From: Comamonas odontotermitis
GTDB lineage: Bacteria; Pseudomonadota; Gammaproteobacteria; Burkholderiales; Burkholderiaceae_C
Assembly (NCBI RefSeq): GCF_014207855.1
Contig: NZ_JACHKZ010000001.1
Location: 310,001 to 374,000, forward strand
Direction: 5' to 3'
Length of the DNA stretch: 64,000 nucleotides
This document shows positions 1 to 12,076 of this stretch, one piece after another. The position numbers were made by a program, and so were the translations under genes. Numbering within the stretch: position 1 is the stretch's first letter; every line of letters begins with the position of its first letter. Below the pieces are notes generated by a model that did not search any database, was not told where the DNA came from, and saw only the letters and a program-made list of their open reading frames with translations.

Positions 1-1394
1 TGTTGCTGCTGTGGCCGGTATCGCTTGCGCTGACCTGGCTGGTGGCGCAGAACCTGGCCAACAAGCCCTTCGACCGCGCACTGGAGTACAACGCCCACGC
101 GCTGGCCCAACTGGTGAGCGTGCATGGCGGCCAGACCTATTTCAACCTGCCCCAGCCTGCCAGCGAAATCCTGCGTGCCGACGACTCGGACGCCGTGTAC
201 TACCAGGTAACGGCGCCCAATGGTCGGTTTCTGGCTGGCGAATCGGAACTGCCCTCGCCCCAGGATGACCAGGAGCGCCCCGTCGGTCTGGTGCAGCTGC
301 GCGACGCCGAACTGCGCGGCGTGGACGTGCGGATTGCCTGGATCTGGGTACGCCTGTCACTGCCCGAGCCCAATCTGGCGCTGATCCAGGTGGCCGAGAC
401 GCGCGAAAAGCGCAGCGTGCTGGCGACGGAAATCATCAAGGGCGTGATGCTGCCGCAGTTCGTCATCCTGCCGCTGGCGGTGCTGCTGGTATGGCTGGCG
501 CTGGCACGCGGCATCAAGCCGCTGCACCAGCTGGAGGAGCGCATCCGCGCCCGCAAGCCCGATGACCTCTCGCCCATCAACCACAAGGATGTTCCACTCG
601 AAGTGGTGCCGCTGGTCGATTCGGTCAACGACCTGCTGGGGCGCCTCAACGACTCGCTGGCCACCCAGAAGCGCTTTCTGGCCGACGCGGCCCACCAGCT
701 CAAGACGCCGCTGGCGGGGCTGCGCATGCAGGCCGAAATGGCCCAGCGCGCCGATGCCAATGCCGCAGACCTGAAGCTGTCGCTGCAGCAGATCGGGCGC
801 TCCAGCATGCGCGCCACCCACACCGTCAACCAGTTGCTGTCGCTCGCCCGCGCCGAGGGCCCCGGCGCGCTGCTGCAGCGCAGGCCCTGCAACATGGCCG
901 AAATCGTGCTCGATGCCATGCACGACGGCATAGACCGCGCGCTGGCCAAGCACATCGATATGGGCTATGAAGGCATGCAGACGGACGACCTGGAGGTGTG
1001 GGTCAACGGCAACGCCACATTGCTGGGCGAGTTGGTGCGCAACCTGCTGGACAACGCCATCAACTACACGCCTTCCAGCGCCAGCACGCCGGGCATCATC
1101 AATGTGCGCCTCTTGGCCGACCCCTTTGGCCACGTGCTGGTGCTGCAGGTAGAGAACTCCGGCCCCGGCATTGCCGAGGAGGACCGCGAACATATCTTCC
1201 AGCCCTTCTACCGCGTGCTGGGCAGCGAGGTCGATGGCTCCGGGCTGGGCCTGCCCATCGTGCAGGAAATCGCGCGCCAGCATGGCGCCAGCGTCACCCT
1301 GGAAGACGCCTATCCCAAGCAGGTACAGCGCGGTGTGGTGTTCAGCGTGCGGCTACCGACGACCAAGGCGCCCACCCTGGCCAGCCCTGTCTGA
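1..1394 (+). CDS. Sensor histidine kinase, TctE-like (5' end outside window)
   Basis: Membrane sensor kinase of a two-component system. The visible part begins inside the first membrane segment, so the true start lies upstream; the TTG at base 3 is only the first in-frame start-like codon. Counting from base 3, an extracytoplasmic sensor region of the TctE/2CSK type runs to about residue 140 and a second membrane segment sits near residues 148-168. A HAMP-like linker follows. The phosphoacceptor box has His231 in AAHQLKTPL, the N box NLLDNAINY starts near 347, and the G boxes (NSGPGIAEED, DGSGLGLPIV) complete the ATPase. The cognate response regulator is probably just upstream, outside the window. 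The inducing ligand cannot be read from the sequence; TctE relatives often respond to carboxylates. Confidence 0.9.
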   Translation, partial: LLLWPVSLALTWLVAQNLANKPFDRALEYNAHALAQLVSVHGGQTYFNLPQPASEILRADDSDAVYYQVTAPNGRFLAGESELPSPQDDQERPVGLVQLRDAELRGVDVRIAWIWVRLSLPEPNLALIQVAETREKRSVLATEIIKGVMLPQFVILPLAVLLVWLALARGIKPLHQLEERIRARKPDDLSPINHKDVPLEVVPLVDSVNDLLGRLNDSLATQKRFLADAAHQLKTPLAGLRMQAEMAQRADANAADLKLSLQQIGRSSMRATHTVNQLLSLARAEGPGALLQRRPCNMAEIVLDAMHDGIDRALAKHIDMGYEGMQTDDLEVWVNGNATLLGELVRNLLDNAINYTPSSASTPGIINVRLLADPFGHVLVLQVENSGPGIAEEDREHIFQPFYRVLGSEVDGSGLGLPIVQEIARQHGASVTLEDAYPKQVQRGVVFSVRLPTTKAPTLASPV

Positions 1395-1457
1395 AGGCAC
1401 AGCTGCAGCACCCGGACTGCCCGCTGTGGCTCACTGCCGATGTCGCTCGCGGCTACT

Positions 1458-1937
1458 TCAGGTACTGGCGCACCTGTGCAATCCAGCTGGCGCGAGCTTG
1501 GGCGTTGGCAAAGCTGGACGCGGGATAACCACGGCCTCAAACGGGCCAACATAGACCGCCACGATGCAGGGGTAGTCGCGCACGCGCGTCACGCCCGGCC
1601 AGCGGTTGAGGGTTTCGTAGGTCTGTGTCCAGTCCGTCAAACCCTGAGGGCTGGGTTGCACCACATGTTCGGTCAGCACACGATTGTGTCGACTGCACAG
1701 GTATGCAGCGTTGAACAGCCATTGCAGCATCCACAGCGCGCAATAACCCGCCACGGCATGCCATACCAGTGAAACAACGGTTTCGTCGGTCATCCACCCT
1801 ATCACGCCGACTCCCAGCGCGCACAAGCCATTGAACCCTTGCGCAACGATCGAGTGGAACTGGTGAATGCAGTTAAAAAACCAGAAATGCACAAAACGCA
1901 GCCGGTAACGCAGCGCACTGCCGTCTAGCAGTTCCAT
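1458..1937 (-). CDS. Small membrane protein of unknown function
   Basis: A 159-residue protein I do not recognise by name. It has two hydrophobic segments in the first half (around residues 35-50 and 55-80), then a soluble C-terminal part with a YcxB-like feel (RVRDYPCIVAVYVGPFEAVVIP). A clear AAGGAG ribosome-binding site precedes the ATG at 1937, which supports this start. The gene is convergent with the sensor kinase. The 18-bp dispersed repeat starts 13 bp upstream of its start codon. Function unknown. Confidence 0.6.
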   Translation of the reverse strand: MELLDGSALRYRLRFVHFWFFNCIHQFHSIVAQGFNGLCALGVGVIGWMTDETVVSLVWHAVAGYCALWMLQWLFNAAYLCSRHNRVLTEHVVQPSPQGLTDWTQTYETLNRWPGVTRVRDYPCIVAVYVGPFEAVVIPRPALPTPKLAPAGLHRCAST

Positions 1938-1950
1938 CTTGGCTCCTTAA

Positions 1951-1968
1951 GAACGTGTTTACGATCTC
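1951..1968. repeat. 18-bp dispersed repeat, copy 1
   Basis: The string GAACGTGTTTACGATCTC is present here and again at 15693-15710 with no mismatch. This copy lies in the short gap between the SPOR-domain gene and the small membrane-protein gene. Confidence 0.8.
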
Positions 1969-2003
1969 CACGCAGCCGCGTTGGAGTGCAATCGGGATGA
2001 CTT

Positions 2004-2801
2004 CTAAGAGATACAGGCCTGCAAGTCCTTGCCATCCATCACATGCCAGCTTTGCACACGCTTCTTGGTGGCCGCATCGACGCGGGGCAGGCGCAGGGTG
2101 TAGCTGGTGGTCTCAGGCCGGTCCACCACCACCTTGGCGCCACTCACACCCTTCTTGCCCATTGCGGCAAGGTGGCGCTCTGCGGCTTCTTCGGTGGAAA
2201 AGCGCCCCAGCGAAATGCCGGGCTCCAGGCTCGCCAGGCGAGCGCGGTCGGTGCTGATATCGAGCGCGCGCAATTCGTCGCGGCGTTTGTCCAAGGCATC
2301 CTGGCTGCTGAACTTGCCGACATACACCATCCAGCGGCCCGCCGTGGTGGTGGAGTCGAGCTTCCAGCTGCCCTCGGGCAGCTTGGCCAGTTGCAGCCGC
2401 AATGCCTCCACCTGCTTGGCATCGAAGCTGCCCGCCACCAGGCATTCCCGTTTTTCAGGTTTCTCGGGTTTTTCAGCGGGTTTCTCAGCCAGCTTATCCG
2501 CAGGTTTGTCCGCAGGCTTTTCTGCCATTCTGTCGAATTCGGCCGCTGGTCTGCCTGTGGCATCCGAGTTTGCAGTCGCCGCAGACTCGGACGCCGGTGC
2601 TGCACTCTGCATCTGCTTTTGCGCCTGGTCCATTTCCTCGCGCGTCATGATGCGCAACGCTTCGGGGTTGACCTGCTGCTGCAGGCGCTCGGGCTCGGCC
2701 GGGTTCTCGGGCGCCCAGCCCAGGCTGCGCAGCATGCCGTGCGAAAACGCGTAGTAGCCCGCATTGGCCAGCAACAGTAGCACGATGGCAAAACGAATCA
2801 T
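2004..2801 (-). CDS. SPOR-domain protein
   Basis: A 265-residue membrane-anchored protein. An N-terminal hydrophobic helix (residues 1-20) is followed by a low-complexity linker rich in Ala/Glu/Lys/Pro with repeated xDKPADK / AEKPEKP units. A C-terminal SPOR-like domain (about 115-235) contains the YVGKFSS and LGRFSTEEAAERHL segments. SPOR domains bind denuded peptidoglycan glycan strands at the division site, so a periplasmic cell-envelope role is inferred. It lies immediately downstream of birA on the same strand and is probably co-transcribed with it. Confidence 0.8.
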   Translation of the reverse strand: MIRFAIVLLLLANAGYYAFSHGMLRSLGWAPENPAEPERLQQQVNPEALRIMTREEMDQAQKQMQSAAPASESAATANSDATGRPAAEFDRMAEKPADKPADKLAEKPAEKPEKPEKRECLVAGSFDAKQVEALRLQLAKLPEGSWKLDSTTTAGRWMVYVGKFSSQDALDKRRDELRALDISTDRARLASLEPGISLGRFSTEEAAERHLAAMGKKGVSGAKVVVDRPETTSYTLRLPRVDAATKKRVQSWHVMDGKDLQACIS

Positions 2802-2840
2802 CCCAACTTTTCCCTTGTCTTGGTCTGCAGCACCCGCACG

Positions 2841-3716
2841 TCAGCCCTGCACCGGCGCCTGCGGCCGCACACTGATTTCGGAGCTGGTCACGCCCACCAG
2901 GCCTGCGGCAGTCTGCACCTGCAACGCACCATCTGCGGCCACGCCCTGCGCGGTGCCCTGAGTGCCATCGCTCAAGCTTACCGCACGGCCTGCCAATGCA
3001 TCACGCGCGGCAAAACGCTGTTGCAGCGGCGCAAATCCCTGGCGGGCAAACGCCTGCACGGTGGCAACCAGCGCGGGCACCACGGCGGCCAGCGCCTGCG
3101 GTGCATCCCAGCGGCTGTCTACCATTTGCAGGCTGCCGGGTATGGTGGAGAGGCCTTCGCCCTGCGGTGCGCGCACGTTGATGCCAATGCCGATCACGAC
3201 ATAGCGCAATGCCTGCTGTTCAAAATACCCACCAGCGCTTGTGGAATGGTCGCCAGATGCCATGAAACTTGCAGTTTCCACCAGGATGCCGGCAAGCTTG
3301 CGGTCGCCCGTCAGCCACAGGTCATTGGGCCATTTGAGGCCAATTTTCGGCGCTTGCAGCGTGGCGCGGTCTTCCATAGACATCTGGGGCTGCAGGCTTT
3401 CAGCCACGCTTACGCCTACAGCCAGCGACAGGCCGGACCAATCGCGCGGCGCAAGCGGCAGGCCCAGCGAAAACATCAGCGAATCGCCCACTTCGCTGCG
3501 CCAGGGACGGCCCAGGCGGCCACGGCCTGCCGTCTGCTGCTCGGCCACCAGCAGGATCGGCTCCTGTCGGCCCTCGCGCGCACGGCGCATCAGCTCGGTA
3601 TTGGTGGAGTCGATGCTGGGCATGATCTCGATCGTGAAACCCGGCAATTGCGGCTCCACGGCCTGCCAGATGGCCTCAGCGGGCCAGCGGATGGGCTCCT
3701 GGCTGGCTGCGGTCAT
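2841..3716 (-). CDS. birA: Biotin--[acetyl-CoA-carboxylase] ligase
   Basis: Activates biotin with ATP and attaches it to the biotin carboxyl carrier protein of acetyl-CoA carboxylase in the cytoplasm. The biotinyl-AMP loop GRGRLGR is at residues 64-70, the catalytic Lys motif KWPNDL at 128-133, and the biotin-binding KLAGIL at 140-145. At 291 residues it lacks the N-terminal winged helix of E. coli BirA, so it is a group I, enzyme-only ligase that should not act as a repressor. Its start overlaps the stop of the upstream SET-domain gene by 4 bp (ATGA), so the two are translationally coupled. Confidence 0.93.
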   Translation of the reverse strand: MTAASQEPIRWPAEAIWQAVEPQLPGFTIEIMPSIDSTNTELMRRAREGRQEPILLVAEQQTAGRGRLGRPWRSEVGDSLMFSLGLPLAPRDWSGLSLAVGVSVAESLQPQMSMEDRATLQAPKIGLKWPNDLWLTGDRKLAGILVETASFMASGDHSTSAGGYFEQQALRYVVIGIGINVRAPQGEGLSTIPGSLQMVDSRWDAPQALAAVVPALVATVQAFARQGFAPLQQRFAARDALAGRAVSLSDGTQGTAQGVAADGALQVQTAAGLVGVTSSEISVRPQAPVQG

Positions 3717-4375
3717 GCGCGGGCCTTTGCCGAAGTTCTGGGCTGGCTGGCTTTTGGCTTGGGCTTGGCATTGGGTTTTGGCTTCGGGTCTGCCTTGGCT
3801 TGGCTCTTGGACTCAGCCTTGGCTTTCGCAGTGGTCTCGCCGCCCGTCTTGGGTTTCTTGCCAGGCTCGGGCAGGTCGCTGGCAGGGCCCTTGGGCTTCC
3901 AGCCTCGCTTGGGGGCGAGCATGGTGCCCCGGCAGTCCGCTGCGCCGCAATGGCAGGCATAGTCGGCCTTCAGCTTGGCGGTGTAGCGCTCTTCGATGAT
4001 GAGGCCGTAGTCGTAGCCCAGCTCCTCGCCAGCGCTGATATTGCGCAGCGCGCTGATGAAGATGCGGTCTTCCACCTCTTCGGCAAAGCAGTTGGGATCG
4101 CAGCTGTGGTTGATCCAGCGTGCCGAGTTGCCGCCATCACCGCCATCGATGACGCGGTTGCCGTCGATCTGGAAGAAGAAGGTGTGGTTGGGGTTGGCCG
4201 GATCGTGCGGGTGGCGGCGCTGGCTCTCTTCATAGCTGATGACCTTGCCCGCATATTCGACAATCACTTCGCCTTCTGCGATATCCTGCAGCGCAAAAAC
4301 GCCCCTGCCGTGCACACCGGAACGCCGTACCTGGATACGGCGGCCTGTTGAAAAATGGGGGACATTGCTCGGCAT
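3713..4375 (-). CDS. SET-domain protein lysine methyltransferase with basic tail
   Basis: Predicted SAM-dependent protein lysine methyltransferase. The SET core covers about residues 12-130 with GRGVFAL (23-29), NHSCDPNC (89-96) and ELGYDYG (118-124, including the catalytic Tyr). A post-SET cysteine cluster, CHCGAADC, follows at 141-148. Residues 155-220 form a Lys/Ala/Pro/Ser tail with no predicted fold, similar in composition to histone H1 tails. The start sits 161 bp from the divergent topB start, and the stop overlaps birA. The substrate is unknown. Bacterial SET proteins (for example in Chlamydia) can methylate histone-like proteins, so a DNA-associated basic protein is a reasonable inference. 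The adjacent TopB carries a Lys-rich stretch of that kind. Confidence 0.9.
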   Translation of the reverse strand: MPSNVPHFSTGRRIQVRRSGVHGRGVFALQDIAEGEVIVEYAGKVISYEESQRRHPHDPANPNHTFFFQIDGNRVIDGGDGGNSARWINHSCDPNCFAEEVEDRIFISALRNISAGEELGYDYGLIIEERYTAKLKADYACHCGAADCRGTMLAPKRGWKPKGPASDLPEPGKKPKTGGETTAKAKAESKSQAKADPKPKPNAKPKPKASQPRTSAKARA

Positions 4376-4404
4376 GGGAATTTTTCTGCTACTTTAAAAA
4401 ATAA

Positions 4405-4457
4405 GCACATGCGCATGTGCGCGTACGTACATGCAGGCGCCCGCGCACATGCGCGTG
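4405..4457. promoter_or_regulatory. Alternating purine/pyrimidine tract (Z-DNA-prone) in divergent promoter region
   Basis: Bases 4405-4435 alternate purine and pyrimidine without a break (31 bp), and 4442-4457 form a second unbroken run of 16 bp. Both are made of CG, CA/TG and TA steps, with CG and CA steps dominant, which favours left-handed DNA under negative supercoiling. The first run begins with a perfect 16-bp palindrome, GCACATGCGCATGTGC (4405-4420). The tract lies in the only gap between the SET gene and topB, where the promoters of both genes must be. Confidence 0.75.
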
Positions 4458-4536
4458 AAGCGTGCATTGTAAGAGCGTGCTCAGAGAGCCAGCAATCCAC
4501 AGTGCTGGCAGACCCCAGATTGATGAGAGTGAACCC

Positions 4537-7470
4537 ATGTCCAAGACCCTGGTCATTGCAGAGAAACCGTCCGTTGCGCAAGACATCGTCCGTGCGTTAA
4601 CGCCGGTGGCAGGCCAATTTGCCAAACACGACGACTACTTCGAGTCAGACGGCTACATCGTCACGAGCGCGGTGGGTCACTTGGTAGAGATCCAGGCGCC
4701 GGAAGAATTCGATGTCAAGCGCGGCAAGTGGAGCTTTGCCCATCTGCCGGTGATCCCGCCCTATTTCGAGCTCAAGCCCGTCGACAAGACCAAGACGCGC
4801 CTCAACGCCGTGGTCAAGCTGGCCAAGCGCAAGGACGTCACCGCCCTCATCAACGCCTGTGACGCGGGCCGTGAAGGGGAGCTGATCTTCCGCCTGATCG
4901 AGCAATACGCGGGCGGCGCCAAGGGCGGCCTGGGCAAGCCCATCACGCGCCTGTGGCTGCAATCGATGACGCCACAGGCCATTCGGGAGGGCTTTGGCAA
5001 GCTGCGCACCGACAACCAGATGCAAGGCCTTGCCAACGCGGCGCGCAGCCGCTCCGAAGCCGACTGGCTGGTGGGCATCAACGGCACCCGTGCGATGACG
5101 GCGTTCAACTCGCGCGATGGCGGATTCTTTCTGACCACCGTGGGCCGCGTGCAGACGCCGACCCTGTCGCTGGTGGTGGAGCGCGAGGAAAAGATCCGCA
5201 AGTTCGTCAGCCGCGATTACTGGGAAATCCACGCCGAGTTCGGCGCGCAGGCCGGCCACTACCCGGCCAAGTGGTTCAACCCCGCCTGGAAGAAAAGCGA
5301 TGACGCCGAAGCCAAGGCCGACCGTGTGTGGAGCCTGCAGGAGGCTCAGTCCATTGCCAATGCCGCGCGTGGCAAGCCTGCCACCGTCACCGAGGAGAGC
5401 AAGCCCACCACGCAGGCGTCGCCCTTGTTGTTTGATCTGACCAGCCTGCAGCGCGAAGCCAACAGCAAGTTCGGCTTCTCTGCCAAGACCACGTTGGCCC
5501 TGGCCCAGGCCCTGTATGAAAAGCACAAGGCCCTGACTTACCCGCGTACCGATTCGCGCGCGTTGCCTGAAGACTACCTGCCTGTGGCACGCCAGACCTT
5601 CGAGATGCTGGCGCACAGCAGCATGCAGCAACTCGCGCCCTTTGCGCAGCAGGCCATCGGTGCCAACTACATCCGGCCATCCAAGCGCATCTTCGACAAC
5701 AGCAAGGTGTCCGATCACTTTGCCATCATCCCGACCACGCAAGCCCCCGGGGCGCTTTCCGAGGCCGAACACAAGCTCTACACGCTGGTGGTGCGCCGCT
5801 TCATGGCGGTGTTCTTCCCCAGCGCCGAGTACCAGGTCACTACGCGCATCAGCCAGGTTGAACAGCACCATTTCAAGACCGAAGGTAAAGTGCTGGTCAA
5901 GCCCGGCTGGCTGGCGATCTACGGCAAGGAAGCCGCCCACGAGGTGGAAGACGCCAAGGACGGCGACAAGGGCCAGAACCTGGTGCCGGTGCAGCCCGGA
6001 GAGAAGCCGCTCGCCGACCCGGTCGATCCCAAGGGCCTCAAGACCAAGCCGCCCGCCCGCTACTCCGAAGCGACCCTGCTGGGCGCCATGGAGAGCGCAG
6101 GCAAGCAGATCGACGACGACGAGTTGCGCGAAGCCATGCAGGAAAAGGGCCTGGGCACGCCAGCCACGCGCGCGGCCATCATCGAAGGCCTGCTGACCGA
6201 AAAATACATGCTGCGCGAAGGCCGCGAGCTGATTCCGACCGCCAAGGCCTTCCAGCTGATGACCCTGCTGCGCGGCCTGGAAGTGGAAGAGCTGTCACGC
6301 GCCGACCTGACCGGCGAGTGGGAATACAAGCTGGCGCAGATGGAAAAGGGCCAGCTCTCGCGCGAAGCCTTCATGGCCGAGATTCAGGCCATGACCGAGC
6401 GCCTGGTCAAGAAGGCCAAGGAATACGACCGCGACACCATTCCCGGCGATTACGCTACCTTGTCCGCCCCCTGCCCGAACTGCGGCGGCGTCGTCAAGGA
6501 AAACTACCGCCGCTATGCCTGTACCGGCATCCACGGCAATGGCGAAGGCTGCGGCTTCTCGTTCACCAAATCGCCTGCGGGCCGCACTTTCGAGACCGCC
6601 GAGGCCGACCAGCTGCTGCGCGACCGCAAGCTGGGGCCGCTGGACGGTTTCCGCTCCAAGGCAGGCTGGCCGTTTGCCGCCGAAGTGGCCATCGTGCGCG
6701 ACGAGGACAACAACAACTACAAGTTCGAGTTCGTGTTCGAAGACAACAAATCGGACGAAGAATCGGGTGAGCTGGTTGATTTTGGCCACCAGAACGCGCT
6801 GGGCGCCTGCCCCAAGTGCGGCGCGCCAGTGTTCGAGCATGGCGCCAACTACGTGTGCAGCAAAGCCGTACCCACGGCGCAGCAGCCCACTCCCAGCTGC
6901 GATTTCAAGAGCGGCCAGATCATCCTGCAGCAACCCATCGAGCGCGACCAGATGGCCAAGCTGCTGGCCTCCGGCAAGACCGACCTGCTGGACAAGTTCG
7001 TCTCCAACCGCACGCGCCGCAGCTTCAAGGCCTTCCTGGCCTGGGACAAGGACGCTGGCAAGGTGAACTTCGAGTTCGAGCCACGCGAAGGCAAGTTCCC
7101 GGCGCGCAAGGCAGCGGCTGCCAAGACAGCCGCCAAAACCGCCACCAAGACTGCAGGCAAAGCAGCTGCCAAGGCCACCAAAGCCACGAAAACAGCGACG
7201 AAAACCGCCACCAAATCCGCGGCCAAAGCCCCTCGCAAGGTGGCGGCCACGCTGACCCCCAGCCCCGCGCTTGCCGCAGTGGTTGGCAGCGAGGCGACCT
7301 CGCGCCCCGAAGTGATCAAGAAGCTGTGGGACTACATCAAGGCCAACGGTTTGCAGGACGCCAAGGACAAGCGAGCCATCAACGCCGACGCCAAGCTCAA
7401 ACCGCTGTTTGGCAAAGACCAGATCAGCATGTTCGAGATTGCAGGCATTGTGGGCAAGCATGTGAGCTGA
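4537..7470 (+). CDS. topB: DNA topoisomerase III with H1-like linker and SWIB domain
   Basis: Type IA topoisomerase that passes single strands and resolves recombination and replication intermediates. The ATG at 4537 (MSKTLVIAEKPS) is chosen over an in-frame GTG at 4462 because the TOPRIM domain starts directly with it. TOPRIM residues Glu9 and DAGREGE (109-115) are present, and the nucleophile is Tyr335 in LTYPRTDS. Two C4 zinc-finger-like modules follow the core (CPNCGG...CTG...CGF and CPKCGA...C...C). Residues about 858-905 are a Lys/Ala/Thr-rich stretch resembling histone H1, and about 906-977 are a SWIB/MDM2-like domain (VIKKLWDYIKANGLQD, LFGKDQISMFEI). E. coli TopB (653 residues) lacks both additions. 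SWIB-topoisomerase fusions are known in other bacteria. Confidence 0.95.
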   Translation: MSKTLVIAEKPSVAQDIVRALTPVAGQFAKHDDYFESDGYIVTSAVGHLVEIQAPEEFDVKRGKWSFAHLPVIPPYFELKPVDKTKTRLNAVVKLAKRKDVTALINACDAGREGELIFRLIEQYAGGAKGGLGKPITRLWLQSMTPQAIREGFGKLRTDNQMQGLANAARSRSEADWLVGINGTRAMTAFNSRDGGFFLTTVGRVQTPTLSLVVEREEKIRKFVSRDYWEIHAEFGAQAGHYPAKWFNPAWKKSDDAEAKADRVWSLQEAQSIANAARGKPATVTEESKPTTQASPLLFDLTSLQREANSKFGFSAKTTLALAQALYEKHKALTYPRTDSRALPEDYLPVARQTFEMLAHSSMQQLAPFAQQAIGANYIRPSKRIFDNSKVSDHFAIIPTTQAPGALSEAEHKLYTLVVRRFMAVFFPSAEYQVTTRISQVEQHHFKTEGKVLVKPGWLAIYGKEAAHEVEDAKDGDKGQNLVPVQPGEKPLADPVDPKGLKTKPPARYSEATLLGAMESAGKQIDDDELREAMQEKGLGTPATRAAIIEGLLTEKYMLREGRELIPTAKAFQLMTLLRGLEVEELSRADLTGEWEYKLAQMEKGQLSREAFMAEIQAMTERLVKKAKEYDRDTIPGDYATLSAPCPNCGGVVKENYRRYACTGIHGNGEGCGFSFTKSPAGRTFETAEADQLLRDRKLGPLDGFRSKAGWPFAAEVAIVRDEDNNNYKFEFVFEDNKSDEESGELVDFGHQNALGACPKCGAPVFEHGANYVCSKAVPTAQQPTPSCDFKSGQIILQQPIERDQMAKLLASGKTDLLDKFVSNRTRRSFKAFLAWDKDAGKVNFEFEPREGKFPARKAAAAKTAAKTATKTAGKAAAKATKATKTATKTATKSAAKAPRKVAATLTPSPALAAVVGSEATSRPEVIKKLWDYIKANGLQDAKDKRAINADAKLKPLFGKDQISMFEIAGIVGKHVS

Positions 7471-7484
7471 CCTTGGCTGCTGCC

Positions 7485-7991
7485 ATGACGCTGCTTGCGT
7501 GGACCCTGGGCTTGTATGCGCTGCTGGAACTGCTCTTTCACGGCATCAGCTACGGCGTGGCACGCATCATGGAGCGGGAAGCCCGCAAGCAAGGGCTCCC
7601 GCTGAAGCCCAGCCGCGCCCACTGGCAGGCTATTTTCTACCGGCTGTTTGCGGTGGCGGCCATCGCCTTGATGAGCCACTGGTATGCGCAGGCCATCAGC
7701 GATGTAGGGTGGAAACAGGCCCTGGCAGTGGTTGCGGTGATCTGCCTTGTCGTGACTGCCGTGATCGGCACGGACATCTCCATCATCCAGCACCTCAAAA
7801 AGCAAAGCGCCACGCACTTTGTCAATATGCGCGAGATGTCGCTGCTGCACATCCTGCGCCACCTGCCTGCGCACCGCCATTGGTATTTCAGCAAGGCTTA
7901 CCTGCCCTACGCGCGGCGCGCCAACTTCGGGGTCGGCCTGCTGTCGCTCCTGCTGCTGTATCTCGACCTTCGGGCGTACTATGCAGCCTGA
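7485..7991 (+). CDS. Predicted inner-membrane protein, unknown function
   Basis: A 168-residue protein starting at an ATG 14 bp after the topB stop, probably on the same transcript. It has four likely membrane segments: residues 3-22, about 50-68, 75-95, and a last one near 150-165. A cytoplasmic stretch with HILRHLPAHRHWYFSKAYLP lies between the last two. I do not recognise the family. Its link to topoisomerase function is positional only. Confidence 0.7.
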   Translation: MTLLAWTLGLYALLELLFHGISYGVARIMEREARKQGLPLKPSRAHWQAIFYRLFAVAAIALMSHWYAQAISDVGWKQALAVVAVICLVVTAVIGTDISIIQHLKKQSATHFVNMREMSLLHILRHLPAHRHWYFSKAYLPYARRANFGVGLLSLLLLYLDLRAYYAA

Positions 7992-8039
7992 CAACGGATA
8001 ATCCGCAGCCCGCCCACCTACCCATTTCGGATTCGCACC

Positions 8040-8393
8040 ATGTACATCCGCCGCAGCCACCGTATTCTGATCGGCCTTGCCATTGCTCTGGCCGTGGCGG
8101 CCGCTGTTGTGGCCTGGCGCGGCCCGACAGTGGTGAACGAGGCACAGGATGCCGCAAGCGCGTTGCTCAAAAAGGCATCCAATCCGCCGCCACCCACCGC
8201 CGGCGAACAGCGGCGCAGCCAGGCTCGCCGCACAACCGATGCCCACGGAAAGCCCTCAGCCACGCCGGTGCAGCCACGCAAGTGCATTCAGAATGGCAAG
8301 ACCATCTATACCGATGCGCCCTGCCCTGCGGGTAGCGAAGAGCAGGTGGTGCCGGAGAACCTGTCGGTCGTGCCCGGGAGTGCTGCACGCTGA
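8040..8393 (+). CDS. DUF4124-type exported protein
   Basis: A 117-residue protein with an N-terminal signal anchor (about residues 8-26), a disordered Pro/Ala/Arg-rich linker, and a short C-terminal DUF4124-like module, KCIQNGKTIYTDAPCP (about 80-95). DUF4124 modules occur in exported proteins of beta/gammaproteobacteria; their biochemical role is not established. It follows the small membrane protein on the same strand after 48 bp. Confidence 0.72.
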   Translation: MYIRRSHRILIGLAIALAVAAAVVAWRGPTVVNEAQDAASALLKKASNPPPPTAGEQRRSQARRTTDAHGKPSATPVQPRKCIQNGKTIYTDAPCPAGSEEQVVPENLSVVPGSAAR

Positions 8394-8493
8394 GCGCAGA
8401 AAAATGAGTGCAAAAAGCAGTGCTGCTGGCGCTTATTGCAGCGGGGTCATGAAAAGAAAACCACTCAGAACTCAATCACAGAAACCACTAGAT

Positions 8494-8510
8494 GCTCTTA
8501 TTTTAAGAGC
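8494..8510. repeat. Short perfect hairpin in intergenic repeat-like DNA
   Basis: GCTCTTA-TTT-TAAGAGC forms a 7-bp perfect stem with a 3-base loop in the 159-bp gap between convergent genes. It resembles the AT-cored hairpins at 15586, 21600 and 45211 in size and position, and may act as a bidirectional 3'-end structure. Confidence 0.45.
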
Positions 8511-8552
8511 AATCAGTACTCTAGGCGATAGAGCTGCGTCCCTGCGGAGCGC

Positions 8553-9593
8553 TCAGCCTTGGCGCATGAAACGCTGCGCACACTGCCAGCCCAGCTCAGC
8601 CAGCGGCCCCGCCTTGGCGCCAGTGGCCACCGCATCGGCTGCCGCCGCCGTGCCATCGGCCGCACGTTGGGCTATGCCGTACAAGATGGCCGCCATGCGA
8701 AACAGGTTGAAGGCCAGGTAATACTCCCACAACGCTCCAGGGCTGCGGCCCGCTTGGTTGGCGTACCACTGCAGGTACTGCGCTTCATCTGGAATACCGA
8801 GCATAGCCAGATCCAGCCCGCCGATGCCGCGCCACAGATCGGGCGGCACGCGCCAAGCCATGCCATGGTAGGCCAGATCGGCCAGCGGATCGCCCAGGGT
8901 TGAAAGCTCCCAGTCCAGCACTCCGATGACGCGCGCCTCGCTCGGGTGCCACACCAGATTGTCCAGCCGGTAATCGCCATGCACCAGTGTGGTTGCATCG
9001 CCTTGCGGCAGGTACTGCGGTAGCCAGTCGATCAGGCGGCGCATGGCTTCGTTGATGGGCACGGACAGCTGCAGGCTCTGCTGCCCCCAGCGCTTGACCT
9101 GGCGCGCCACATAGCCGCCGTGGCGTCCGTAATCGGCAAGACCCACGGCATCCATATCCACCTGGTGCAGCGCGGCGATGACGCGATTCATCTCGCCATA
9201 CAGCGCCGTGCGCTCGGCGCGGCCCAGCTCCGGCAGGGCCGGGTCCATGAAGACGCGGCCTTCGAGAAACTCCATCAGGTAGAACGGCGTGCCCAGTAGT
9301 TGCGCGTCATCACAGTAGGCCAGCATGCGGGGCACCGGCACGTCGCTGCCTGCCAGAGCGCGCATGACCCGGTATTCACGGTCTACCGCGTGCGCTCCCA
9401 CCACCAGCGGCCCTGGCGGCTGCTTGCGCAGCACCATCTGCCGGTCGCCTGCCTGGAGGCGGTAGGTGGGGTTGGACTGGCCACCCGCAAGCACGCTGAT
9501 GCGCACCGGCTCGCCTTGCGTCAGGCCCGTGTCTTTCAGGTATTTTTGCAGTGCGGCGGCTAACTGGTTTTCGCCAATAGCTTCTATTTTCAT
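8553..9593 (-). CDS. Phosphotransferase (APH family), probable hydroxyacyl-CoA kinase
   Basis: A 346-residue kinase-like protein of the aminoglycoside/choline phosphotransferase fold. The Brenner-type motif HGDYRLDN is at 205-212 and the metal-binding DWELSTLGDP at 227-236; the N-lobe has LAGGQSNPTY (35-44) and a KQP nucleotide-binding segment. I place the start at the ATG 9593, 4 bp after the upstream acyl-CoA dehydrogenase stop, rather than at an in-frame codon at 9653 inside that gene. In mammals ACAD10/11 fuse this kinase to an acyl-CoA dehydrogenase, and the bacterial LvaA kinase acts on 4-hydroxyvaleryl-CoA. I therefore infer a 4-hydroxyacyl-CoA kinase rather than an antibiotic-resistance enzyme. 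Confidence 0.85.
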   Translation of the reverse strand: MKIEAIGENQLAAALQKYLKDTGLTQGEPVRISVLAGGQSNPTYRLQAGDRQMVLRKQPPGPLVVGAHAVDREYRVMRALAGSDVPVPRMLAYCDDAQLLGTPFYLMEFLEGRVFMDPALPELGRAERTALYGEMNRVIAALHQVDMDAVGLADYGRHGGYVARQVKRWGQQSLQLSVPINEAMRRLIDWLPQYLPQGDATTLVHGDYRLDNLVWHPSEARVIGVLDWELSTLGDPLADLAYHGMAWRVPPDLWRGIGGLDLAMLGIPDEAQYLQWYANQAGRSPGALWEYYLAFNLFRMAAILYGIAQRAADGTAAAADAVATGAKAGPLAELGWQCAQRFMRQG

Positions 9594-9597
9594 AGCA

Positions 9598-10824
9598 TCA
9601 ATGCTGCAGCGGCGGTATGGAGCAGATCGCCTCAGGTACGCCGCGCTCAACATCGGCGTCCTTCTCGGCCGCCTGCACCAGCTTGCGCGCCATGCTGAAG
9701 CGGTGCACTTCGCTCGGGCCGTCGTAGATGCGAAAGGCCCGCATGTCCATGAAGATGCGCATGACCGGCGTCTCCATGGTTACGCCCTGTCCGCCGAGCA
9801 TCTGCACGCAGCGGTCCACCACGCGCCATTCGGCTTCTGAGCACACCACCTTGGCGCGGCTGGATTCGTAATTGCCCTGCTCGCCCTGGTCCAAAAGCCA
9901 TGCGGTGTGCCAGATGTGCAACCGCGCGGTATGCAGGTCCATGTCGTTGTCGGCCAGCATGAAGCCCACGCCTTCGTGTGACGCCAGCGGCTTGCCGAAG
10001 GCAGTGCGGCGGCGCGTGTAGGCCAGGGCAATATCCTGCGCGCGGCGTGCCTGGCCCAGCCAGCGCATGCAGTGCGTCAGACGTGCGGGCGCCAGCCGAA
10101 CCTGGGCGTATCGAAAGCCCTTGCCGACTTCGCCCAGGATGTCGCCCGCTGGCACGCGCAGCCTGTCAAAGCGCAGCACGCCGTGGCCGCCGGTAAAGCA
10201 AGCGTCCATCGCATCCATGCTGCGCTCCAGCACGATCTCGGAGCGGTTCATGTCGGAGAGGAACATGGTGGCGCCGCCATCTTCGGTGCGCGCCATGATG
10301 ATGGCGTAGTCGGCGCCTTCCGCGCCAGTGATGAACCATTTGCGGCCGCTGATGAGGTAATCGTCACCATCGCGCACCGCAATGGTCGACAGTGCCGCCG
10401 GGTCTGATCCGGCGCCGGGTGCGGGCTCGGTCATGGCAAAGCACGAACGCAGCTGCCCCGCCACCTGCGGGCGCAGCCAGCGCTCCTTCTGCGCGGCGGT
10501 AGCGACCTCTTCCATCAGGTGGATATTGCCTTCATCGGGCGCGTGGATGTTGAGCGCTGTGGGGCCCAGCCACGAGTAGCCAGCTTCCTCGAACACCACC
10601 GCCTTCTCGACATGGCTCAGCCCCAGGCCCCCCAGCGCCTTGGATGCATGCGGCGTGAGCAGGCCCGCAGCGCGCGCGCGACCCACCAGTTCGCGCCGCA
10701 GCGCTTCGCTCGGTCCGTGGCTCGACTGGCGCTCGTCGTTTTCGAGCGGAATCACCTGTTCGGCGATGAACTGGCGCGTCTTGTCGCGCAGCGCTTGCAG
10801 TGGGGGGGAGAGAGAAAAATCCAT
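9598..10824 (-). CDS. Acyl-CoA dehydrogenase (ACAD10/11-like)
   Basis: A 408-residue FAD-dependent acyl-CoA dehydrogenase. FAD/substrate motifs include AMTEPAPGAGSD (mid N-terminal half) and KWFITGAEGADYAIIMAR. The C-terminal helical domain has YTRRRTAFGKPLASHEGVGF and ends with IYDGPSEVHRFSMARKL. It is directly followed by the APH-type kinase gene (4-bp gap), the arrangement expected for a two-protein version of ACAD10/11. The likely job is degradation of hydroxylated fatty acyl-CoAs, with phosphorylation followed by elimination; this is inference from the pairing. It is divergent from the phosphatase gene. Confidence 0.9.
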   Translation of the reverse strand: MDFSLSPPLQALRDKTRQFIAEQVIPLENDERQSSHGPSEALRRELVGRARAAGLLTPHASKALGGLGLSHVEKAVVFEEAGYSWLGPTALNIHAPDEGNIHLMEEVATAAQKERWLRPQVAGQLRSCFAMTEPAPGAGSDPAALSTIAVRDGDDYLISGRKWFITGAEGADYAIIMARTEDGGATMFLSDMNRSEIVLERSMDAMDACFTGGHGVLRFDRLRVPAGDILGEVGKGFRYAQVRLAPARLTHCMRWLGQARRAQDIALAYTRRRTAFGKPLASHEGVGFMLADNDMDLHTARLHIWHTAWLLDQGEQGNYESSRAKVVCSEAEWRVVDRCVQMLGGQGVTMETPVMRIFMDMRAFRIYDGPSEVHRFSMARKLVQAAEKDADVERGVPEAICSIPPLQH

Positions 10825-11002
10825 ATCGGCGCCTTGCAGTCAGATGGCGCCGATGTTGCCATGCACCACCCCAGTTCTGGTCGCAATAGCGACAAAACAG
10901 CCCTGTCCGGCGTGTCTTGGTGTGTGCAGCCGACGCTGTCGCTTTGCAGTCCACAATCACCTGCACGACAGGTCTGTCACAGGAGTGGGCTATAACCCTT
11001 TT

Positions 11003-11797
11003 ATGGATACGATGAACGCGGCGGTGGCACCGCAACCACAGGCCACCACTTTCCCCGAACGCCACCTGCCGCTGGCAGGCACCACCAACTTCCGCGACCT
11101 GGGCGGCTACCAGGGCCTCGATGGCGGCAAGGTGCGCTGGCGCACACTGTTTCGCTCCGACCATCTGGCCCATCTGACTGCCGAATCGCAGCGTACCTTG
11201 CTGCAACAGCTGGGCGTGGCCCGCAGTGCCGATTTTCGCGGGCTGCGCGAGCAAACCGTGGACAACTACCGCATCGATGGCCTGCTGCACCATTCGCTGG
11301 CCATCGAGCCCACCGTCGTGCAGCGCGCATTCACGCTGCTGCAGCAGGGCGAAAACCTGAGCGCGGCGCACACCGTCGAGCTGATGCAGGATACCTATCG
11401 CAGCTTTATCCACGACAACGCTGGCCAGTTTGCGCGGTTTTTCCAGATGCTGCTGGCCAGCGACAAGCCGCTGGTTTTCCACTGCACCGCCGGCAAGGAC
11501 CGCACCGGCTGGGCCGCCACTTTGCTGCTGATGACCCTGGGTGTGCCACGCGATGTGGTGGTGCACGACTACCTGCTGACCAACCAGTACTACCACCGCC
11601 CCGCAGAGGCGCGCGCCGCCGCCAGCCACATCCCGGAAGAGGTGCTCAATGTGCTGTGGAGGGTACAGGAGCCCTTTCTGACTGCCGCACTTGACCCGGT
11701 CTTGCAGCAGTACGGCAGCGTGCCCTCCTATGTAAGCCAGGTGCTGGGCTTAGACGCCAAGGCGCAGGCCCGACTGGCACAGATGTATCTGGAATAG
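11003..11797 (+). CDS. Tyrosine/serine protein phosphatase (IphP-like)
   Basis: A 264-residue phosphatase of the atypical dual-specificity/IphP family. The N-terminal signature TTNFRDLGGY (27-36) and the P-loop HCTAGKDRTG (160-169, nucleophile Cys161, Arg167) are intact. No signal peptide is visible, so it is cytoplasmic. The ATG at 11003 is used because the FRDLGGY core starts soon after it; longer in-frame extension would run through the divergent promoter region. A terminator hairpin follows the stop. Substrates could be proteins or phosphoinositides; the sequence does not decide. Confidence 0.88.
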   Translation: MDTMNAAVAPQPQATTFPERHLPLAGTTNFRDLGGYQGLDGGKVRWRTLFRSDHLAHLTAESQRTLLQQLGVARSADFRGLREQTVDNYRIDGLLHHSLAIEPTVVQRAFTLLQQGENLSAAHTVELMQDTYRSFIHDNAGQFARFFQMLLASDKPLVFHCTAGKDRTGWAATLLLMTLGVPRDVVVHDYLLTNQYYHRPAEARAAASHIPEEVLNVLWRVQEPFLTAALDPVLQQYGSVPSYVSQVLGLDAKAQARLAQMYLE

Positions 11798-11822
11798 CCC
11801 TCTCCTGAATTCATCGCACCTG

Positions 11823-11853
11823 ACGCCGGCTGCATTTGCATGCCGGCGTTTTC
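11823..11853 (+). terminator. Rho-independent terminator after phosphatase gene
   Basis: The stem ACGCCGGC (11823-11830) pairs with GCCGGCGT (11842-11849), followed by TTTTC. Inner TGCA/TGCA segments can extend the stem. It lies 26 bp after the phosphatase stop. Confidence 0.8.
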
Positions 11854-12076
11854 ATTTGCAAAGCAAGCAGGGGTTCACCGGACCCTGCCCAGCCTTGCCC
11901 GCTACCGATCTCCCTCCGAGAAGCTGCATCCATAAGAATAGTATTTATCTATCAAATAGATAATCTATTGATTAAATCACCATTTATTACTAATCTTTCA
12001 ATGTTGATCAATTTTTCAAATCAAAAACACAAACTCTGCCTCCTGGATCTCGGGCGGGGTTTCGATGGAGGAACAC
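11854..12076 (+). promoter_or_regulatory. AT-rich upstream region of the IgGFc-binding protein gene
   Basis: From about 11935 to 12030 the sequence is strongly AT-rich in an otherwise GC-rich neighbourhood. It contains a perfect inverted repeat ATCTAT-CAA-ATAGAT at 11947-11961. No gene is seen. The AT content and the symmetric element suggest a promoter under xenogeneic-silencer or specific-regulator control. A strong Shine-Dalgarno (GGAGGAA, 12067-12073) marks the start at 12077. Confidence 0.5.

Follow-up and report, generated by a model that had tools for sequence, protein, structure and literature searches.

We analysed a stretch of 64,000 nucleotides of Comamonas odontotermitis DNA, here called the window, in which the gene of a SET-domain protein, followed by birA, is divergent from topB, the gene of a DNA topoisomerase III with a C-terminal SWIB domain. 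The best explanation of this arrangement is that SET-birA and topB have been a divergent pair since the ancestor of one bacterial family, the named members of which are mostly Comamonadaceae, with a short shared control region. The most interesting solid result was a conserved alternating purine-pyrimidine tract in this divergon of a topoisomerase III gene and a methyltransferase gene. A preliminary description of this DNA had reported a SET gene with a basic tail divergent from a TopB carrying a Lys/Ala-rich stretch and a SWIB domain, and this observation was confirmed in the window.

The birA gene overlaps SET by 4 nt in the window, and the gap between SET and birA had a median of 5 nt in the 59 loci measured out of 61 family SET loci; SET and birA therefore look like one operon. 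A divergent TopB was present in 58 of 60 family SET loci, and 59 of the 60 had birA behind SET; these loci were chosen by hand among the best 150 places (234 genomes with SET), and low-scoring paralogues are under-sampled among them. The exceptions to the divergent pair were L031, where TopB is located on the contig of SET at a distance of ~8 kb, and L040, where SET has 53% identity and the locus contains neither TopB nor birA. A set of 80 named loci, the titles of which point mostly to Comamonadaceae, contained 79 with a divergent TopB, the 80th being cut by a contig end, and 79 with birA downstream. The closest named SET locus was that of Comamonas sp. B21-038 with 94% identity, the window's own record possibly having been left out of the listing. 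The preliminary description had named the lack of a conserved neighbourhood in related genomes as an argument against its proposal; such a lack was not what we found in the chosen and named loci.

The conservation was also evident in evenly drawn samples. SET was found in 234 and SWIB in 248 of 250 family genomes, and the corresponding numbers for 250 genomes of the order were 66 and 93. An open frame of at least 900 amino acids (aa) with a SWIB domain occurred in only 7 of the order genomes, all of which belong to the family of the window (f1), and in each of these 7 genomes with a TopB-SWIB fusion SET was located ~3 kb away on the opposite strand.

The region that extends from the start of topB to the core of SET was extracted by motif rules from 116 of 141 family loci, 25 giving none, and 110 of the regions were distinct; the named loci overlap partly with the other family genomes, with five regions shared. 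An alternating run of at least 20 nt was present in 74 and one of at least 14 nt in 103 of the 110 regions. Elsewhere in the same 110 loci (1.23 Mb) a single alternating run of 20 nt was found, this control DNA being the same neighbourhood in many genomes and rarity in other parts of a genome being established for the 64-kb window only. Among 150-nt windows drawn at random from the family SET loci, ~2% contained an alternating run of at least 14 nt. Dinucleotide shuffles led to an expected run of 10 nt compared to 27 nt observed, and 98 of 99 distinct leaders exceeded their own shuffle mean. Outside the family, none of 20 TopB upstream regions and none of 20 SET upstream regions contained a 14-nt alternating run. 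The hexamer TACAAT was found in 100 of the 110 distinct regions, and the first alternating run of at least 10 nt began a median of 9 nt behind it. A sigma-70 consensus scan of positions 4330-4580 gave no site, and a search of positions 1-12000 of the window against Rfam gave no match.

With respect to composition, the tracts resemble a Z-DNA-forming element, as 92% of the steps in tracts of at least 20 nt were CG/GC or CA/TG/AC/GT. When a simple B-Z transition model was applied, the region ranked first among the potential Z-DNA sites in 99 of 112 loci at a superhelical density (sigma) of -0.025 and in 106 of 112 loci at -0.03 and -0.04; these 112 loci may include repeats. It was also the best site of the whole window at all three values. 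The B-Z energies were taken from a published table (PMC3024258), and the superhelical constant, the domain size and the junction twist were set to values of our own choice. In this simple model the tract thus appears to be Z-DNA-prone. Two observations weigh against the explanation favoured below. When sites were ranked by onset threshold, the tract was the top Z site in 83 of the 112 loci and took second place in the window, and in nine family genomes without SET the tract had a length of 17-21 nt in five, 11 nt in one, and was gone in three. Its survival in SET-less genomes indicates that the tract belongs to the birA/SET-topB control region and not to SET alone.

The SET protein matched PF00856 with residues 23-124 over the complete profile (positions 1-105 of 105; 91.2 bits compared to a cut-off of 22.4). 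The catalytic-domain residues of the GxG, NHxC, EL and Y motifs were at least 95% conserved in an alignment of 61 family SETs and 20 other SETs, and the post-SET cysteines were likewise present and conserved in the 61 and 20 proteins. We take the GxG, NHxC and ELxYDY-like motifs to serve cofactor binding and catalysis, and C141, C143 and C148 presumably have a zinc role. The protein encoded at 3713-4375 on the minus strand is therefore predicted to be a KMT2-like lysine methyltransferase with conserved catalytic and zinc residues. Its best solved relative was the SET domain of KMT2A/MLL1 (E 9.2e-28 over residues 12-150), from which the bacterial protein differs in consisting of the SET/post-SET part and a variable tail, and nothing more. 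The genome of C. odontotermitis contained one SET match at E <= 0.001, and a comparison of the protein with PHROGs gave one weak match and nothing stronger. The tail behind the CRGT motif comprised at least 25 aa in just 13 of the 61 family SETs and fewer than 25 aa in 48, and a conserved H1-like module in this part of the protein was therefore rejected. Residues 54-59 of SET (RHPHDP; window 4199-4216) showed a conservation of at least 95% among the 61 family SETs compared to 15-55% among the 20 others, and this motif may be the mark of a family-specific substrate or partner.

TopB showed profile matches to Topoisom_bac (residues 162-613), Toprim_Crpt (best stretch 787-848) and SWIB (906-976). 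It is a full-length member of NF011313/PRK14724 (residues 1-977, profile 1-988, 1994.6 bits compared to a cut-off of 1088), and the TopB-SWIB architecture has therefore already been catalogued by NCBI as a DNA topoisomerase III model, which is silent on the SET neighbour. The YPRTD motif at residue 335, whose tyrosine we take to be the active-site residue, was present in all 191 TopB frames of at least 800 aa and in 195 of 197 frames overall. The linker following FEFEPR (residues 845-850) contains 13 lysines, 21 alanines, 2 arginines and 1 glutamate in the 58 residues 851-908, and the narrower stretch 858-905 contains 12 lysines and 20 alanines in 48 residues. It was the sole stretch of the window that passed a filter of at least 9 lysines and at least 22 lysines plus alanines in 45 residues, applied to all stop-to-stop frames of at least 80 aa.

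The genome of C. odontotermitis contained two SWIB matches at E <= 0.001, the second being a standalone protein of ~100 aa with a short Lys/Ala-rich start, and many family genomes contained two or more SWIB matches, the SWIB places of the family sample being listed up to the best 150. We inspected 20 standalone SWIB proteins, in which the tail is followed by SWIB as at the end of TopB; most of them had a Lys/Ala-rich start of the MATAKKAPAKKA type, which was very short in some (such as L307 and L316). An example of this layout with a Lys/Ala-rich start is encoded at positions 1495-1815 of L002 (G000:C8:113502-113720). Because the layout is the same, a fusion with a standalone SWIB gene is the probable origin of the SWIB end of TopB. 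Among 58 paired TopBs, 36 contained SWIB and 22 did not; all 22 SWIB-less proteins had a basic end of 14-64 aa with 5-17 lysines plus arginines and 0-4 aspartates plus glutamates, mostly of the AKKAPAKKAAAKK kind. In a quick tree of the TopB catalytic regions (L061 was excluded as too short) SWIB required three changes, which we read as one gain by TopB at a later time and two losses; the outgroup of this tree was imperfectly separated and many inner branches were weak. The pairing with SET reached the basal SWIB-less TopB branches, too. SWIB was therefore rejected as the primary partner of SET, being a later addition to TopB with subsequent losses. The sister SWIB-less TopBs of L006 and L023 apparently also lack cysteines of the C-terminal repeat. 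The picture of SET, H1-like tails and SWIB as one chromatin-like unit, drawn from the preliminary description, was not supported, given the late arrival of SWIB, its absence from many pairs and the shortness of most SET tails.

Table 1. Features of the SET-birA/topB region in the window
Feature	Position	Strand	Basis or remark
birA, biotin-protein ligase	2841..3716	-	4-nt overlap of its start with the end of SET
SET-domain protein, predicted lysine methyltransferase, 220 aa	3713..4375	-	PF00856 E 6.8e-26; closest solved chains KMT2A/MLL1
SET tail, basic, low-complexity, about residues 155-220	3716..3913	-	variable among relatives
Post-SET cysteines C141, C143, C148	3932..3955	-	invariant in 24 aligned SETs
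SET catalytic domain, residues 23-124	4004..4309	-	motifs G23-x-G25, N89-H90-x-C92, E118-L119, Y123
SET/topB divergent intergenic region, 161 bp between starts	4376..4536	.	gene starts
Perfect alternating purine-pyrimidine tract, 31 nt, longest in the 64-kb window	4405..4435	.	run scan
Next longest alternating tract of the window, 16 nt	4442..4457	.	run scan
TACAAT, putative -10 element of the SET-birA operon	4466..4471	-	conservation
TopB, DNA topoisomerase III with C-terminal SWIB, 977 aa, ATG at 4537	4537..7470	+	NF011313/PRK14724
Putative active-site tyrosine Y335 (YPRTD motif)	5539..5541	+	motif conservation
Lys/Ala-rich linker, residues 851-908	7087..7260	+	composition
SWIB domain, residues 906-976	7252..7464	+	PF02201 E 1.8e-26 (whole-protein)

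The preliminary description had proposed that SET methylates lysines of the TopB linker. We examined this idea by comparing TopB tails of genomes with and without SET. For the family, L031 and L040, whose loci lack TopB, and L047 were dropped from the tail statistics, and of 16 SET-less genomes listed, 12 had a TopB match, of which 10 were used after removal of G381 (SET cut by a contig end) and G339 (internal stop). The lysine share of the basic tail residues, K/(K+R), had a median of 0.83 in 58 loci with SET compared to 0 to 0.80 in the 10 genomes without (p 2.3e-5, no phylogenetic control). In a regression, SET kept a t value of 2.45 for this share; the family contrast as such rests on about five SET changes. 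The order sample comprised 121 genomes with TopB, 119 tails of which were used, without those of G010 and of G170, the latter being cut. In the 112 genomes outside the family, the median number of tail lysines was 10 with SET and 7 without (Mann-Whitney p 0.061). KK pairs (p 0.022) and A/P-K-K/T-A/P motifs (p 0.0039) were more common with SET in uncontrolled comparisons, and within families neither differed significantly (p 0.13 and p 0.10, respectively). In a regression with GC content and body composition, KK pairs gave a t value of 2.55. A tree of 143 TopBs provided 13 independent pairs that differ in SET; tails with at least 12 lysines went with SET in a mean of 5.0 of these and against SET in 0.8. 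The corresponding values were 4.7 and 1.2 for at least 10 lysines, 4.4 and 0.6 for at least three KK pairs, 4.5 and 2.6 for at least two KK pairs, and 4.0 and 1.9 for a length of at least 40. In the family, a lysine fraction of at least 0.8 went with SET in 2.4 and against it in 0 of the independent pairs (n = 4).

Several results argue against an action of SET on the TopB tail. In the family, tail K/(K+R) was correlated with the body composition of TopB (rho 0.69). Outside the family, the number of tail lysines gave p 0.07 in a within-family permutation and p 1.0 for family means, and the lysine fraction of the tail did not differ (p 0.18). The independent pairs were not significant, with a median p of 0.125 for at least 12 lysines in the order and 0.25 in the family, and the remaining order contrasts gave p values of 0.219 to 0.688. 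In family f6, SET adjoins a TopB with 0-1 lysines and 4-6 arginines in its tail in all four genomes. In f10, six SET-less genomes encode long tails with 10-21 lysines and 4-13 arginines, whereas the tail of the SET-bearing one has 5 lysines, and genus g145 lost SET and kept 12-13 tail lysines. In L047, SET is present and the TopB linker is lysine-poor: it reads as an Arg/Pro-rich frame, as though by a frameshift, and is flanked by intact sequence on both sides; this could be a sequencing error or a naturally lysine-poor linker. In a sample of 215 genomes of the class, SET was found in 59 of 213 non-family genomes, SWIB matches in none of these 59 and TopB (E <= 1e-80) in 4; divergent TopBs could escape this threshold, and many of the SETs were low-scoring. 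Finally, the chlamydial SET protein NUE is reported not to methylate the H1-like protein Hc1 (review PMC3980110). Taken together, coevolution of the TopB tail with SET, as judged by Mann-Whitney tests, within-family permutation, regression and independent pairs, was suggestive and not significant under phylogenetic control.

Some tails deserve mention in their own right. The SET genes of the f6 loci L067, L196, L200 and L201 (genomes G005, G140, G100 and G055) are convergent, tail to tail, with the gene of the Arg-rich-tail TopB. In the SET-less genus g143 (L090, L093, L094) and in L315, the basic residues of the TopB tail are nearly all arginine, with 0-1 lysines, and genome G272 (L315) encodes a standalone SWIB protein with a Lys-rich tail though its TopB tail is Arg-dominated.

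In the order sample, all 51 genomes outside the family with a strong SET match contained TopB or SWIB (35 both, 8 TopB only, 8 SWIB only), compared to 77 of 184 SET-less genomes; the cut-off for a strong match was picked after viewing the list, and relatedness was not controlled. The rule of a strong SET requiring TopB or SWIB was obeyed in this sample but not in that of the class. Because SET in the class sample mostly occurred without a detected TopB or SWIB, dependence on TopB does not seem to be a trait of SET enzymes as a group. For the family of the window, a specialised connection of SET with TopB is possible. The TopB tail is the leading candidate for a SET substrate, as weakly suggested by the sequence comparisons.

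The reading that we favour, tentatively and with somewhat less than even confidence, is a divergon with a supercoil-responsive control region in which SET acts as lysine methyltransferase of Lys/Ala-rich tails. TACAAT would be the -10 element of SET-birA, and the tract would span the first transcribed bases. Diverging polymerases would generate negative supercoils that drive the tract toward Z-DNA, and the SET/topB pair would thereby sense the topological state that topoisomerases set. SET would work inside the bacterium on Lys/Ala-rich tails, with TopB as the nearest candidate substrate, followed by the standalone SWIB protein with its similar tail. Methylation would keep the positive charge, alter the contacts of the tail and in this way tune the residence time of TopB on DNA. 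The SWIB domain would be a separate, later addition to TopB, probably by the fusion described above. That all these parts form a self-regulating topology circuit, in which a shared Z-DNA-prone control region reads local supercoiling and serves the expression of both topoisomerase III and the methyltransferase of its own tail, appears unlikely to us.

SET could also be a lysine methyltransferase acting in the cell whose main substrate lies elsewhere, such as ribosomal, other histone-like or biotin-related proteins, and it would then be located between birA and topB by history and be held there by neighbourhood inertia and the shared promoter region. This may be correct, again with somewhat less than an even chance. 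It agrees with the tight linkage of SET to birA, with the direct divergence of birA from topB in nine SET-less family loci, with the lysine-poor TopB tail beside SET in f6, and with the widespread occurrence of class SETs without a detected TopB. It also agrees with the distance of the two genes outside the family, where SET and TopB were within 25 kb in just 14 of 45 genomes having both, as measured from the best SET place per genome, the distance in two of the 14 running across the joined ends of a contig assumed to be circular. Against it stand the persistence of the adjacency throughout the whole family, the second, convergent adjacent arrangement of f6, and the drop, in direction, of the TopB tail lysines with the loss of SET. 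A related possibility is that Lys/Ala tails in general are targets of SET, the standalone SWIB protein being the main substrate and TopB one among several. The Lys/Ala-rich starts of most standalone SWIB proteins and the 51 strong-SET genomes of the order sample speak for it, but the lack of SWIB matches in the SET-bearing non-family genomes of the class does not, and among the matches listed no standalone SWIB was found within 100 kb of SET on one contig, many assemblies being fragmented; we consider it very unlikely. The family of the window is largely free-living, and its SET is present in nearly all genomes sampled, tied to the housekeeping gene birA and mostly devoid of a long tail, which makes a secreted effector acting on host chromatin, like NUE or LegAS4, improbable in the extreme. 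Such effectors do exist in pathogens, according to PMC3980110, and SET showed a weak match to the LegAS4/AnkI effector model (NF043024), which at 46 bits compared to a cut-off of 550 does not make it a member.

With regard to the tract, the alternative to Z-DNA is an array of binding sites for an unknown regulator or a hairpin of the RNA leader. The 8-mer GCGCACGC occurred in 31 of 44 intergenic regions compared to at most 5 in base shuffles, the advantage of the tract in the Z-DNA model was small at onset, and 30% of 99 leaders had an RNA folding z below -1.5. On the other hand, the median z was only -0.66, so that RNA folding does not explain the tract well and a leader hairpin was put aside as a weak candidate. 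Furthermore, 70 of the 74 long tracts were distinct in sequence, and no position more than 14 nt past TACAAT reached a 50% consensus; therefore alternation itself seems to be kept. We regard an array or a hairpin as possible, if on the doubtful side. In the putative SET leader, on the minus strand at window positions 4405-4420, a terminator-like hairpin precedes a T-rich run; this element may be an attenuator in C. odontotermitis.

The favoured divergon has partial counterparts in known systems. Chlamydial cpnSET and NUE are bacterial SET enzymes like that of the window; cpnSET of Chlamydia pneumoniae is reported to methylate Hc1 (PMC3980110), a precedent for the proposed action of SET, and NUE is a secreted effector, whereas the SET of the window is part of a divergon with topB and located beside birA. 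The chlamydial TopA-SWIB protein (CtTopA, CT643; NF004966) carries a C-terminal SWIB behind an unstructured stretch, as does TopB here, and a figure legend marks lysine repeats in that stretch; the chlamydial genome encodes a standalone SWIB and a SET protein, too (PMC12445093 and PMC6426960). Both fusions thus occur in genomes with SET and standalone SWIB. The chlamydial fusion is on TopA and that of the window on TopB, which scored 191.4 bits with NF004966 (cut-off 868) and is not a member. As TopA is a topoisomerase other than TopB, SWIB should have been fused to the two independently. Supercoiling-sensitive promoters with GC-rich discriminators have a GC-rich stretch right after a -10-like element, as here (PMC8422995); the region of the window differs in its long alternating tract, which extends past the discriminator, and in its location in a topoisomerase divergon. 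The titles and abstract starts listed by searches of the open-licence literature contained no link of a bacterial SET gene to topB, no description of the tract and no paper on a topoisomerase III-SWIB fusion, which is not proof of absence.

To our knowledge, little is known about the substrates of bacterial SET enzymes in their own cells. Those listed in the review PMC3980110 are mostly host histones. The family-wide pairing of SET with a topoisomerase bearing a histone-like lysine tail offers a definite and cheap experiment on this matter. The conserved tract beside a topoisomerase gene is a natural candidate for supercoil sensing and makes it directly testable whether Z-DNA has a regulatory role in bacteria. 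The TopB-SWIB fusion means that SWIB-topoisomerase fusions are not limited to Chlamydia. If the proposed mechanism is true, the family would possess a dedicated control of a bacterial topoisomerase by lysine methylation, and Chlamydia would have built the same trio of SET, SWIB and topoisomerase-SWIB independently, around TopA.

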